DNA of 64,000 nt from Shewanella loihica PV-4. GTDB lineage: Bacteria > Pseudomonadota > Gammaproteobacteria > Enterobacterales > Shewanellaceae. Both the position numbers and the translations under genes were made by a program. The notes below the pieces were generated by a model, which worked only from the letters and a program-made list of their open reading frames with translations, had not been told where the DNA came from and searched no databases. The number at the start of each line of letters is the position of its first letter. Position 1 is the first letter of the stretch. The DNA is taken from the NCBI RefSeq assembly GCF_000016065.1, contig NC_009092.1, positions 1,550,001-1,614,000 of the forward strand. The letters run 5' to 3'. Positions 58,453 to 62,514 of this stretch are shown here, piece by piece.

Positions 58453-58980
58453 ATGAAGTCTTGGTATCTTGTGTATTGCAAACCTCGCGGCGAAACGCGT
58501 GCGCAGCAAAATCTTGCATTGCAACAGATAGAGACCTACCTGCCCACTCTCCCGCAACAGATCACTAAGTCCGGCAAAAACAGCGTAAAACGTCTACCGC
58601 TATTTCCCTGTTACCTGTTTATCTATTTCGACCCGCTAGAGATCAGCGTAAGTAAGATTCACTCGACACGAGGCGTGTCTCGAATCATAGGTTGCCGAGA
58701 AGAGATGACGGCGATCGACGATGCCATAGTGCATTCCATCAGGATGCGTGAGGCCAAGCTGCTTAACGCGTTGCAATTGCCCAGTGATGATTTGTTGAGT
58801 GGCAACGCTGAGCCTAGGTTGTCTGTTGGCGATAAGGTGAAGTTTGTTGAAGGGCCATTTAAGGAGCTCGAAGGGATCTTCGAAGAGCAGAGTGGCGATA
58901 AGCGCTGTCACATTCTTTTTGAGATCATGGGCCAGCAAAAGAGGGTGTCGGTCTCAAGAGTCAGTATCAAGGGTATTTGA
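58453..58980 (+). CDS. rfaH: Transcription antiterminator RfaH
   Basis: A 175-residue NusG paralogue. N-terminal NGN domain: MKSWYLVYCKPRGETRAQQN, QIETYLPTLPQ, RLPLFPCYLFIYF and STRGVSRIIG. The C-terminal KOW-type domain (about 118-175) has DKVKFVEGPFKELEGIFEEQ. RfaH joins RNA polymerase at ops elements, suppresses pausing and termination, and recruits ribosomes to poorly translated surface-polysaccharide mRNA. Two ops elements lie 450-540 bases downstream, so it probably controls the adjacent operon directly. AAGGA precedes the ATG. Confidence 0.93.
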   Translation: MKSWYLVYCKPRGETRAQQNLALQQIETYLPTLPQQITKSGKNSVKRLPLFPCYLFIYFDPLEISVSKIHSTRGVSRIIGCREEMTAIDDAIVHSIRMREAKLLNALQLPSDDLLSGNAEPRLSVGDKVKFVEGPFKELEGIFEEQSGDKRCHILFEIMGQQKRVSVSRVSIKGI

Positions 58981-59426
58981 GAAAGGTAGCTGATTGAGTA
59001 GCTTCTGATTGGTCAAATAGCACTTTGAAGCAATACGTAGACGTTTATAAGGGATAAGAAGTAGGTCGTTGGCGCTAATCTTTGTAAGAGATCTGCTATA
59101 ACGCGCGATTCGTTGTTAGATTAATCTTCCCGTTTTGTTGGTGTTTTGGTTATTCGGTAACAGATTTTGGTCGTTGAAGGCCTGTATTGAGTGATTTTAA
59201 GCTGATTGTGCTTACCGCATTCGATTGTATTAAACGATTGACGAGTATATGAGCAGTAATTGTCATTTTGTTCCAGTACAATGAATCGCTTTTCTTCAAG
59301 ATAGCGCAAAAGTACTTTGTTTAATGTGTCATTTTGTAGGGCATCTTAACCAAATTATTTTAGTAAAGAGTGATTTAAAAGTTGAATTTCGCGTGGCGAA
59401 GGGCATGTTGGGAGCCGTAACCTATG

Positions 59427-59438
59427 GGCGGTAGCGTG
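59427..59438 (+). promoter_or_regulatory. ops element 1 (RfaH recruitment site)
   Basis: GGCGGTAGCGTG is an exact match to the ops core known from JUMPStart sequences upstream of capsule and O-antigen clusters. The hairpin TGCCC-GCA-GGGCA follows directly. Confidence 0.9.
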
Positions 59439-59509
59439 CCCGCAGGGCATCGAATGAAAAGTTTCATTCGTTAAGCGATAGCCGAAGGCCTCTGGCCGCC
59501 ATGCGGATC

Positions 59510-59518
59510 GGTAGCGTG
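59510..59518 (+). promoter_or_regulatory. ops element 2 (second RfaH site)
   Basis: GGTAGCGTG, the conserved 3' part of ops, preceded by GGATC in place of GGC. It is 83 bases downstream of ops 1 in register, and followed by its own hairpin TGCCT-GAA-AGGCA, so the ops-hairpin unit is duplicated. Confidence 0.75.
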
Positions 59519-59558
59519 CCTGAAAGGCAAAGACAGAACAGTTTCTGTCTTTTAGTGG

Positions 59559-59597
59559 AAGCTGCTAATGATTGTCAGGAACCATCATTAGCAGCTT
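59559..59597 (+). terminator. 14-bp stem-loop in the polysaccharide leader
   Basis: AAGCTGCTAATGAT pairs perfectly with ATCATTAGCAGCTT around an 11-base loop, followed by TAG rather than a T run. It lies 40 bases after ops 2 and about 155 bases before the first gene. It may be an attenuator or pause signal that RfaH overcomes. Confidence 0.55.
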
Positions 59598-59751
59598 TAG
59601 CTGGCTTGAAAAGTGAAGTACAGGATGTACTGAGTCAGATCCCCGCCACATGGGCATGTATCGTGTCCGAATGCCAGTAATTGGCTTAGATTTTATCTGC
59701 TTAAGCCGGAAAGTTTTATTTAGACCTTGCCTTTATCAATGGAGAGTATCG

Positions 59752-62514
59752 GTGTTACAACGAACCAAAAAAGTCATTATAACAGCGGTTGCCGCACTGT
59801 TTTTGGTGGGGACCCAGGTGCAGGCCATCACGCCTTCGCCGCAAATGATAGAGCAGTTTAAAAATCTGCCAGCTTCTGAGCAGCAAAGACTTGCCCGCCA
59901 GTATGGAATCGATCCTGCGATGCTCGGCGGCGCGAGTGTATCGCAGCAAAATCTCGATAATCCGCAAGTCGTTCAGCCTCGAGTAAATGATCAATTTAGT
60001 CAGCCTCGTGCAACTAATGACGTGGTCGATCATTCCCGCGATGCGGCTAATGAACTTAATTTCTCACAGGATGAACAGAAGAAGCAGCTAGCACGTTTTG
60101 GTTATGAGCTTTTTCAAGGTGAACCTACCACTTTTGCGCCCGTCTCTGACGTGCCAGTTCCTGGTGAATATTTGGTTGGTCCTGGCGACAGAATTAAGGT
60201 ACAGCTCTTTGGCAAAGAGAATAAAGAATATGACCTGGTGATTAATCGAGAGGGGAGCATTCAATTCCCCGAACTAGGTCCTATCTCAGTAGCGGGTTTA
60301 AGTTTTGCCGAGCTTCGAGAGTCTCTGAGTCATCGTATTTCTCAGCAGATGATAGGGATTGAGTCGAACATCACCATGGGTGAGCTACGCTCTATTCGTA
60401 TCTTTATCGCGGGTGATGCCTATAAGCCAGGTTCATACACCGTCTCGAGTCTGTCTACTATCACCCAAGCGTTGTTTGTCGCAGGCGGGGTGAACGAGAT
60501 TGGTTCACTGCGTAACATTCAGGTCAAGCGTAACGGAAAACTAGTCGGCAGCATGGATCTGTATGATCTACTTATGCGAGGTGATGCGTCGGGAGACATA
60601 CGTTTGCGTTCAGGCGATGTAGTGTTTATTCCCCCAGTAGGTGGGCTCGTAAGTATTACTGGCGAAGTGCGTCGCCCTGCTATCTACGAGCTAAAACGTA
60701 ACGAAACGGTTGCCGATATCGTCGCTATGGCCGCTGGCGTGAAACCCGGTGCCTATCCAAAGAGCAGTAGCATAGAGCGATATAATAGTAATGGCCTTCG
60801 CAGTATCGTGAATGTCGATCTGACTTCTACTCAAGGTAAATCAACAAAGGCCCAAGCCGGTGACTTTATTCGCGTAAAAAATGCTTCTGGTCAGTTTGAA
60901 GATGCCATTACCGTGGTTGGTGCCGTCGTTCGACCAGGAAAATATCAATGGTTTGATGGCCAAAAAGTAAGCGATCTTCTGCCGTCACTTTGGGGCGATC
61001 TTTCAATTTCAGCCGATCTCAATTATGCGATTATTGTGAGAGAGGTGAATCGCTACGGAAAGGTTAAGGTACTTCAATTCTCTCCTAGCCGCGCTATCGC
61101 CGAGAAAGATGTCACGCAAGATTTGTTATTAGCCCCTCGTGATAAGGTCATGCTGTTCAACTATAGCGATGATACACAAAATCGTTACGAGCTTAATAAG
61201 TTGGTTAAACATAGAGTTAAAAAGGTGACCTCACTTACGGGTGATAGCCTTGTAGGTAATGATCTGTTTAAGGCTGGCTTCTCTCAGCTCGATAAGATGC
61301 AACTTTCACAACGTAGTCAAATTGGTGGTGTAGTTGTAGCTAAAGAAGCGCCTGATGATAAAGAGCAGCTTGTAAAGGGTGAAGTCAATAAGATGCTGGC
61401 TAACCTATTTGAGGATAAGGAGCTCATTAAGCTTAGTGGCTCAATGAATCGTAGTGAGCTGCTTTATCCCGTTGTTGCACAGCTAGCTGCTCAAGGTAAC
61501 TCAGATAAAGGCACGCAAGTCGTCGCCATCAGCGGTAAGGTACGTCATCCAGGTGTGTATCCCCTTTCTCAAGGGGCTAAGGTTAAAGACTTAGTCATTG
61601 CTGCGGGTGGATTGGTTGAAGGTGCCTACACGGCTCGAGCAGAATTGACTACTACGGTAATTGGAAGCGAAGAGTCTAGCGTTAACCATTCAAGTGTTAA
61701 TTTAGATGACGCATTGGCAGGGATTGATAGTGCCAATGTGGTGTTAAGTTCCAGAGACATCTTGACGGTAATGACAACGCCTGATTGGCAGGAAAACAAG
61801 GCGGTTGAGATTCGTGGTGAGGTAAAATTCCCAGGCATGTATAACATTCGCCGTGGTGAAACGCTTGCCGACGTGATCGATCGTGCAGGTGGCTTTACTC
61901 AGTACGCGTATTTACCTTCTTCTGTGTTTGTTCGCGAGTCAGTGCGTCAACAAGAACAGCTGGAAATTAAAAAGCTTGCCGATCAACTTAGACGAGACAT
62001 AGCTACTCGCGGTGTATCTAAAGATGGCAATGTGGTGAATTACAGCGATGCAAAAATGATGCTTACCGACCTTGAAAACATCAAGGCGGTAGGCCGTTTG
62101 GTTGTTGATTTGTCTGCTATATCGATTGGTATCGAACAGGCCGATATTCAGCTTGAAGATCAAGATATTCTTTATGTGCCGTCGGTCAAGCAGACGATTG
62201 CGGTAATGGGTGAGGTGCAACACGCTGCCACTCATAGGTTTAAAGAAGGCTTAACGTTAGATCAGTATCTTGAGATGTCTGGTGGAGCCAGAGAGCGCGC
62301 CGATGAAGACAGAACCTACATTATTAAGGCAAATGGTTCGGTGCTCCTCCCGAATCGTTCAATGTGGTTTAGCAGTAATACTGAGCTCAATCCTGGTGAC
62401 ACCATTATTGTACCGCTGGATACAGAGTATAAAGATAACCTCACACTCTGGACCCAGGTTACCGGCATTATTTATAACAGCGCCGTTGCATTGGCCACGA
62501 TTGCCAAACTATAG
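59752..62514 (+). CDS. Polysaccharide export outer-membrane protein (Wza/OtnA-like, multiple SLBB domains)
   Basis: A 920-residue protein from the GTG at 59752, with GGAG 7 bases upstream; a longer frame from 59650 is rejected. Signal peptide: VIITAVAALFLVGTQVQA. The Poly_export domain (about 130-210, VPGEYLVGPGDRIKVQLFGK) is followed by several SLBB-type segments (IFIAGDAYKPGSYTVSSLST, ITGEVRRPAIYELKRNETVA, AISGKVRHPGVYPLSQGAKV, EIRGEVKFPGMYNIRRGETL, VMGEVQHAATHRFKEGLTLD). It is much longer than E. coli Wza (379) and resembles V. cholerae O139 OtnA. It probably forms the export channel for a capsule or O-antigen-like polymer. Confidence 0.9.
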   Translation: MLQRTKKVIITAVAALFLVGTQVQAITPSPQMIEQFKNLPASEQQRLARQYGIDPAMLGGASVSQQNLDNPQVVQPRVNDQFSQPRATNDVVDHSRDAANELNFSQDEQKKQLARFGYELFQGEPTTFAPVSDVPVPGEYLVGPGDRIKVQLFGKENKEYDLVINREGSIQFPELGPISVAGLSFAELRESLSHRISQQMIGIESNITMGELRSIRIFIAGDAYKPGSYTVSSLSTITQALFVAGGVNEIGSLRNIQVKRNGKLVGSMDLYDLLMRGDASGDIRLRSGDVVFIPPVGGLVSITGEVRRPAIYELKRNETVADIVAMAAGVKPGAYPKSSSIERYNSNGLRSIVNVDLTSTQGKSTKAQAGDFIRVKNASGQFEDAITVVGAVVRPGKYQWFDGQKVSDLLPSLWGDLSISADLNYAIIVREVNRYGKVKVLQFSPSRAIAEKDVTQDLLLAPRDKVMLFNYSDDTQNRYELNKLVKHRVKKVTSLTGDSLVGNDLFKAGFSQLDKMQLSQRSQIGGVVVAKEAPDDKEQLVKGEVNKMLANLFEDKELIKLSGSMNRSELLYPVVAQLAAQGNSDKGTQVVAISGKVRHPGVYPLSQGAKVKDLVIAAGGLVEGAYTARAELTTTVIGSEESSVNHSSVNLDDALAGIDSANVVLSSRDILTVMTTPDWQENKAVEIRGEVKFPGMYNIRRGETLADVIDRAGGFTQYAYLPSSVFVRESVRQQEQLEIKKLADQLRRDIATRGVSKDGNVVNYSDAKMMLTDLENIKAVGRLVVDLSAISIGIEQADIQLEDQDILYVPSVKQTIAVMGEVQHAATHRFKEGLTLDQYLEMSGGARERADEDRTYIIKANGSVLLPNRSMWFSSNTELNPGDTIIVPLDTEYKDNLTLWTQVTGIIYNSAVALATIAKL

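Follow-up and report, generated by a model that had tools for sequence, protein, structure and literature searches.

The leader between rfaH and a wza-like polysaccharide export gene in the window (the whole stretch of Shewanella loihica PV-4 DNA analysed, 64,000 nucleotides long) carries two copies of the ops element separated by a structured unit. We lean towards reading it as a tandem array of RfaH loading sites, which would give polymerase a second chance to load RfaH while the leader is kept structured. RfaH serves as the model of how a NusG paralog is recruited sequence-specifically; to our knowledge a single ops is the described rule for RfaH operons. The observations on which this reading builds are the sequence, its conservation, covariation, the genus-wide distribution and a position-specific constraint on the downstream ops, from which we infer RfaH loading at ops2. 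The window belongs to a single-contig genome of 4,602,594 bases, in which rfaH is followed by a long leader and then by the export gene. The main features of the locus are as follows.

58453..58980, + strand: rfaH, 175 aa, NusG-family antiterminator; TIGR01955 at 168.8 bits (cut-off 144.5); PDB RfaH chains, best E 4.7e-21
59388..59400, + strand: hairpin TTCGC-GTG-GCGAA, immediately 5' of JUMPstart; stem of at least 5 bp at the same place in 77 of 86 leaders
59401..59438, + strand: JUMPstart RF01707, covariance-model match of 40.8 bits (gathering 35)
59427..59438, + strand: ops1, GGCGGTAGCGTG, exact, 12 of 12, 0 mismatches
59507..59518, + strand: ops2, ATCGGTAGCGTG, 10 of 12, two mismatches, both at positions 1-2; conserved in relatives
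59654..59665, + strand: decayed third ops, GCATGTATCGTG; the aligned place in S. insulae (locus L002) has an intact GGTAGCGTG
59752..62514, + strand: polysaccharide export (wza-like) gene, an ORF with a likely GTG start after GGAGA; export-protein families match below their cut-offs; start region similar in relatives

The antiterminator gene does lie directly upstream of the leader, as had been read from the sequence alone, and its product is RfaH by the equivalog cut-off of TIGR01955 (NCBIfam); its closest PDB relatives are RfaH chains. Alignment to these chains shows that both K10 and R73, which the available text of PMC7593976 names as DNA-binding residues of RfaH, are kept. RfaH-related loci numbered 21; 17 of these, among them the closest, are from Shewanella. 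A scan of 58900-59800 found no promoter-like site (shuffles 1.8); its single terminator-like site, at 59673-59685, is weak (shuffles 0.8).

We defined an ops element by GGCGGTAGCGTG, where C3-G8 serve RfaH and T11-G12 serve pausing (base roles from the available text of PMC5995543). The copies match it at 12 and 10 of 12 positions, ops2 differing solely at positions 1-2, so that the sequence-only reading of two ops beside rfaH, one exact and one with a conserved core, is borne out; the distance from start to start is 80 bases and not the 83 it had given. Exact GGTAGCGTG occurs just twice in the 64-kb window, at these two sites. GGTAGCGTG-like strings number 12 against a chance mean of 11.96, that is, without excess by number alone; it is the exact copies standing in tandem, together with their conservation in the genus, that exceed chance, not the string count. 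The first copy forms the 3' end of JUMPstart, whereas the second gives no RF01707 match. The third copy is expected to be dead in this genome, because C3, G4 and G8 are changed. Among 86 distinct leaders that share one JUMPstart class, 77 have the stem of at least 5 bp directly 5' of JUMPstart, against a mean of 12.3 and a maximum of 22 after shuffling; the sequence of this hairpin changes between leaders, and it lies outside the Rfam model.

The three loci closest by RfaH (S. insulae, S. marisflavi and S. aquimarina, with 95, 91 and 90% identity) all have two ops 80 apart, with a third exact ops 148 beyond the second in S. insulae and a third with one change in S. aquimarina. The S. benthica KT99 record has two ops at 80 and the DSM 8812 record one. 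At least one GGTAGCGTG is present in the fetched flanks of 13 of the 17 Shewanella rfaH loci. Spacing searches of 129 Shewanella genomes, made without choice of loci and thus unbiased, found an exact GGTAGCGTG pair 74-104 apart in 30 genomes (reverse-read control 1/129) and 139-169 apart in 14 (control 2/129). Both ranges combined give an exact pair in 36 of the 129; the other 93 are without one in these ranges, and three further genomes (G105, G012 and G026) have pairs at 222-305. In a class-wide sample, a pair with a gap of 60-90 occurs in 1 of 369 genomes, which is this one, against 4 of 369 in the backward control, and outside this genome the sample holds the tandem pair no more often than chance would give. 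Because of the excess in the genus, set against a class sample at or below chance, the tandem pair is a feature of part of Shewanella. A chance origin is rejected for the genus by the relatives and by the spacing searches with their reverse-read controls.

The spacer between the two ops belongs to a structured element of about 80 nt, here termed X, which reaches from one ops up to the following one; a further structured module is termed Y. Their parts in the window are listed below (A1 is an alignment of 35 X units; R1 and R2 are covariance models).

59430..59506, + strand: X1 (complete), in alignment A1; R1 85.9 bits
59434..59437, + strand: 5' strand of a possible closing helix P0, inside ops1; pairs with 59501-59504
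59438..59448, + strand: X1 hairpin P1, GCCC-GCA-GGGC; covarying helix, absent from the whole-leader minimum fold
59451..59470, + strand: X1 hairpin P2, CGAATGAA-AAGT-TTCATTCG; covarying helix, in folds
59487..59497, + strand: X1 hairpin P3, GGCC-TCT-GGCC; covarying helix
59501..59504, + strand: 3' strand of possible P0; 95.7% of cells paired over A1, no pair changed on both sides
59510..59579, + strand: X2, with P1 and P2 intact and the P3 slot taken by Y; R1 45.6 bits
59518..59528, + strand: X2 hairpin P1, GCCT-GAA-AGGC; in folds, covaries in other units
59530..59551, + strand: X2 hairpin P2; in folds
59559..59597, + strand: long hairpin, an extended form of the first Y hairpin; fold z -5.2 for 59507-59605
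59568..59635, + strand: structured module Y; R2 84.0 bits, in the model's own seed set; covariation

Over A1, whose units were hand-picked for length and variety, 96.7% of cells are paired and 14 of 22 pairs are changed on both sides, counts that are favoured by the structure having been derived from the same alignment. The covariation score is 0.441, compared with 0.149 for shuffled alignments and at most 0.110 with partners slid. P1, P2 and P3 are the covarying helices. The 5' strand of P0 is the GCGT of ops itself, and this helix is unproven because it is conserved without compensatory change. The P1 sequences after ops1 and ops2 are GCCCGCAGGGC and GCCTGAAAGGC, and the P2 arms are CGAATGAA..TTCATTCG and AAGACAGAA..TTCTGTCTT.

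Contrary to this structural reading, thermodynamic folding does not favour the full X fold, which comes to within 3 kcal/mol of the minimum for just 6 of the 35 units. Mean pair probabilities are 0.93 for P2, 0.61 for P1, 0.37 for P0 and 0.36 for P3, so that solely P2 is strongly predicted. In the window, the minimum folds contain both P2 hairpins and the second-copy P1; the first-copy P1 appears in the fold of 59427-59485 and is missing from those of 59427-59506 and 59380-59720. Each ops had been described as followed by a small hairpin and then a stem-loop; this stands in that hairpins do follow each copy and that P1 and P2 covary, and it falls short in the first P1, which the longer minimum folds lack. 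The 5' end of JUMPstart, GGGCA at 59402-59406, is complementary to UGCCC at 59437-59441 (the end of ops and the 5' strand of P1), and the leader minimum fold pairs these regions in place of the first P1, making an alternative state possible.

Module Y is often found in the P3 slot of X or after X. In alignment A4 (the 16 units remaining after thinning 35 full-length Y matches), 97.7% of cells are paired, 11 of 19 pairs are changed on both sides, and covariation is 0.382 against 0.158. A search of 30 genomes, among them the present one, found Y in 9, of which two belong to other genera. The present genome has Y a second time, at G000:C1:2607415-2607482 (60 bits). The 4227 Rfam models gave no match over gathering score to the window's X and Y; for the window, JUMPstart alone is over gathering and the other five matches listed fall well short of theirs, by which a known Rfam RNA is rejected for X and Y.

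By the covariance model, X is present in 58 of the 129 Shewanella genomes, at 1 to 15 matches per positive genome, and in 11 of 295 genomes of an order-wide sample, all of them Shewanella (1 of 99 genera). Within this genome X is found in this leader only. Simple duplication of the leader is ruled out because the spacer is a distinct unit present in those 58 genomes. Of the earlier view of a duplicated unit, the two ops-competent sequences are retained, and the duplication becomes one case of a modular array. Leader X matches begin at the ops that ends JUMPstart in 53 of 78 cases (78 of 86 matches were used, the seven lowest-scoring and that of L010 being left out); the split into 53 first and 25 internal units was made by pattern, and for 8 of the 25 the start lies in Y or in other sequence instead of at an ops box. 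Arrays reach up to four units (L103), mostly close with another ops or its remnant, and sometimes hold an inserted second structured module. A single exact GGTAGCGTG in the 900 nt read is the state of 53 of 84 recognised leaders, the recognition pattern having missed 23 of 107 loci, which were assessed by eye. Altogether, some Shewanella carry the modular array, and the others lack it or have it in decayed form. A variant unit with a different 3' half (AGAGCTCTGCGA...ATCAGGA) was seen in L167, L171 and L052, and the first two of these retain the next exact ops at a spacing of 80. In L172 and L174, P2 is weakened by mismatches, as judged by eye, and the second exact ops is still kept. L025 and L034 have another JUMPstart type (CAGCAATCTGGAAGCTG), with ops then a T run, and are without X.

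Constraint on the downstream ops was read base by base from 69 distinct boxes that follow an X tail (CATGC here, CACGC in most units) in fixed register, taken from the 52 of 58 leaders with a findable tail; 58 of 60 leader loci were used for the box counts, with L052 and L170 left out. In this set, which still contains tails due to chance (such as L081 at 367 and L110 at 430) and whose leaders are mutually related and not an unbiased sample because they were fetched largely for matching X, the consensus is kept at frequencies of 0.30 and 0.04 at positions 1 and 2, and of 0.83, 0.86, 0.77, 0.83, 0.84 and 0.81 at C3, G4, G5, T6, A7 and G8, with 0.61-0.72 over C9-G12 (G10 0.61, T11 0.70). Exact GGTAGCGTG is in register in 35 of 69 boxes, always after C, or in 39 of 69 when shifts of up to 2 are allowed; non-exact boxes are at least 30 of the 69 distinct. 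Boxes classed by a simple test as lacking a following X are exact in 22 of 50, a figure that includes coding-sequence noise (the loose tail pattern behind it dropped 22 of 100 boxes and left several coding-sequence matches) and is superseded by the fixed-register count.

According to the available text of PMC5995543, all single ops substitutions but G2C lower the RfaH effect in vivo, with T11G among the strongest defects, and recruitment in vitro is abolished by G4C, G5A, A7T and G8C and weakened by C3G and T6A. The sequence-only reading withstands its own check, in that the second ops is conserved in relatives, most strongly at the published RfaH-recognition bases, and this match between the natural profile and the published substitution data is the main reason for seeing the extra ops as working sites. 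The match is imperfect, since T11 is kept in 0.70 only although the T11G defect is strong, and in downstream boxes conservation is lower at T11-G12, the pause bases, than at the bases for RfaH. The downstream ops could also be alike through recent duplication of units. G1-G2 belong to the consensus pause, and pausing at ops2 may be weaker than at a full consensus because they are absent there. On this profile, selection has probably maintained the repeated ops as RfaH loading sites within a modular leader.

In E. coli, polymerase pauses at ops U11, where a C3:G8 DNA hairpin offers its loop to RfaH, and bound RfaH delays escape of polymerase from ops (available text of PMC5995543 and PMC11001881). 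In the leader studied here, polymerase would meet ops1 at the 3' end of JUMPstart and, 80 bases later, ops2, which keeps all the bases published for RfaH recruitment together with the T11-G12 pause dinucleotide and is without G1-G2. A polymerase that missed or lost RfaH at ops1 could load it at ops2, and with such a second chance a larger share of polymerases would be protected against Rho on entering the long polysaccharide operon. On this view the locus might be the self-contained control module with two recruitment chances that had been proposed from the sequence alone. The X and Y hairpins would keep the untranslated leader structured, and therefore poor in Rho-accessible RNA, until translation of wza starts. 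Alternatively, a polymerase already carrying RfaH might be delayed again at ops2, possibly favouring ribosome loading. Because each unit ends flush with the next ops, arrays could grow and shrink by recombination between units, and the third ops here has decayed.

We regard as tentative, and on balance doubtful, an extension of this scheme to a composite DNA/RNA antitermination array of a kind not known before, in which ops DNA hairpins would alternate with a new RNA unit, one that would fold on the arrival of polymerase at the following ops and would act on that polymerase, with array length evolving as an expression setting. As a matter of sequence geometry, the tail of X stops 13 nt short of where the paused 3' end is expected at ops2, so X would just be leaving polymerase as the next ops is reached.

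The tandem array of loading sites has to be weighed against the possibility, which we consider unlikely, that X and Y are dispersed structured repeats spread through intergenic DNA, with the leader ops as a passenger and the tandem arrangement without function of its own. X does lie away from JUMPstart in some genomes, with 14 matches in G043 and 15, one of them at its JUMPstart, in G040; these dispersed copies mean that X can live without RfaH sites, and some of them sit within larger repeated blocks (the dispersed loci were drawn from few genomes, chiefly G043, G040, G007, G112, G050 and G110). The second genomic copy of Y and its occurrence in two other genera point the same way, as does the resemblance of L013 and L015 to filled and empty states of one leader. 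Dispersed X seldom keep ops, however: among 34 of the 35 matches, one starts with GGTAGCGTG (L085), and none of 34 tail-like strings in 29 loci with dispersed X is followed by it, with one more exact GGTAGCGTG after the Y module of the dispersed locus L093. In leader copies, by contrast, C3-G8 are mostly retained and positions 1-2 are not, a pattern that a passenger would not be expected to show, and in this genome X is confined to the leader.

The dispersed copies differ from GTAG REPs, in most members of which a GTAG tag stands beside a single palindrome, in that 32 of 34 are without GGTA at their start and X has three hairpins. A JUMPstart-like stretch precedes dispersed X in L085, L086, L089 and L093, three of which have A in place of T6 of ops (GGAAGCGTG); L086 and L093 adjoin a similar 160-aa ORF. 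Some dispersed X have tails such as ATACAAATGTTAGGC before an ORF, resembling integron attC ends, and an integron integrase scores over the cut-off in G007 and G040, with none over it in G043 or G000 (this genome). At nine loci (L135-L139, L146 and L151-L153), a dispersed X stands at the start of an ORF of the same direction, several with ATACAAATGTTAGGC-like tails; the ORF starts 7-53 nt after X in six of them and inside X in three.

We think it improbable that the array works chiefly as an antiterminator or pause device made of RNA, in which X RNA acts on polymerase in the manner of put or EAR, or holds RfaH as in the LoaP system, with ops serving for pausing. put RNA is a structured leader RNA of processive antitermination. 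In keeping with such a device, the X and Y structures covary, the helices of X are kept in dispersed copies mostly without ops, and LoaP offers a precedent with an RNA hairpin in the leader (available text of PMC12691694). Against it, the T11-G12 pause bases are less conserved than those for RfaH, the predicted full X fold is not dominant, and JUMPstart remains the sole Rfam family over gathering for the window copies. Most improbable of all, in our view, is that the number of units is itself the setting, with recombination between near-identical units tuning operon expression between lineages: units are identical within the array of L081 (two) or nearly so in L103 (four), and close relatives differ, as in the third ops (exact in S. 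insulae, with one change in S. aquimarina, decayed here) and in the tandem and single S. benthica records, but the pattern also fits neutral duplication and loss.

If the arrays work as RfaH loading sites, the number of such sites would be an evolvable control of polysaccharide operons, and X and Y would be candidate new RNA families. A genus that repeats ops offers a natural experiment on which ops bases stay fixed under free drift, on the gain from a second site and on the contribution of the leader RNA.

Much of the setting is already known: JUMPstart, ops and RfaH, GTAG REPs, which are reported in some Shewanella species (available text of PMC3733652), the JUMPstart stem-loop (available text of PMC2864571, which also names EAR RNA), and rfaH inside putative exopolysaccharide operons, described for the Shewanella RfaH cluster CL7 (available text of PMC7593976). 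No description of repeated ops, X or Y in Shewanella leaders was found in the titles and abstract openings of the literature searched; neither "tandem" nor "two ops" occurs in the available text of PMC7593976, the "tandem ops" in that of PMC2871177 refers to a test template that combines ops with his pause signals, and "duplicat" in that of PMC13015549 does not concern ops. PMC2659441 contains none of the relevant terms, and PMC1847822 nothing of relevance. GTAG REPs share with X a GTAG adjoining a hairpin and their repetition, but consist of one 20-40 bp palindrome (PMC3733652, in the same text), whereas X has three hairpins over about 80 nt and its dispersed copies are mostly without GTAG. 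The LoaP hairpin, EAR and put RNA resemble this leader as structured leader RNAs before long operons in processive antitermination; here, in contrast, the recruiting element is a DNA site, the RNA role is putative and the window units have no Rfam match. Cluster CL7 shares the placement of rfaH beside the operon (PMC7593976, in the portion available). The E. coli RfaH operons with JUMPstart and ops are alike in the complete JUMPstart, the exact ops, the polysaccharide operon downstream and a genuine rfaH, and the leader described here differs from them by a second ops 80 bases on and by the structured unit between the two.
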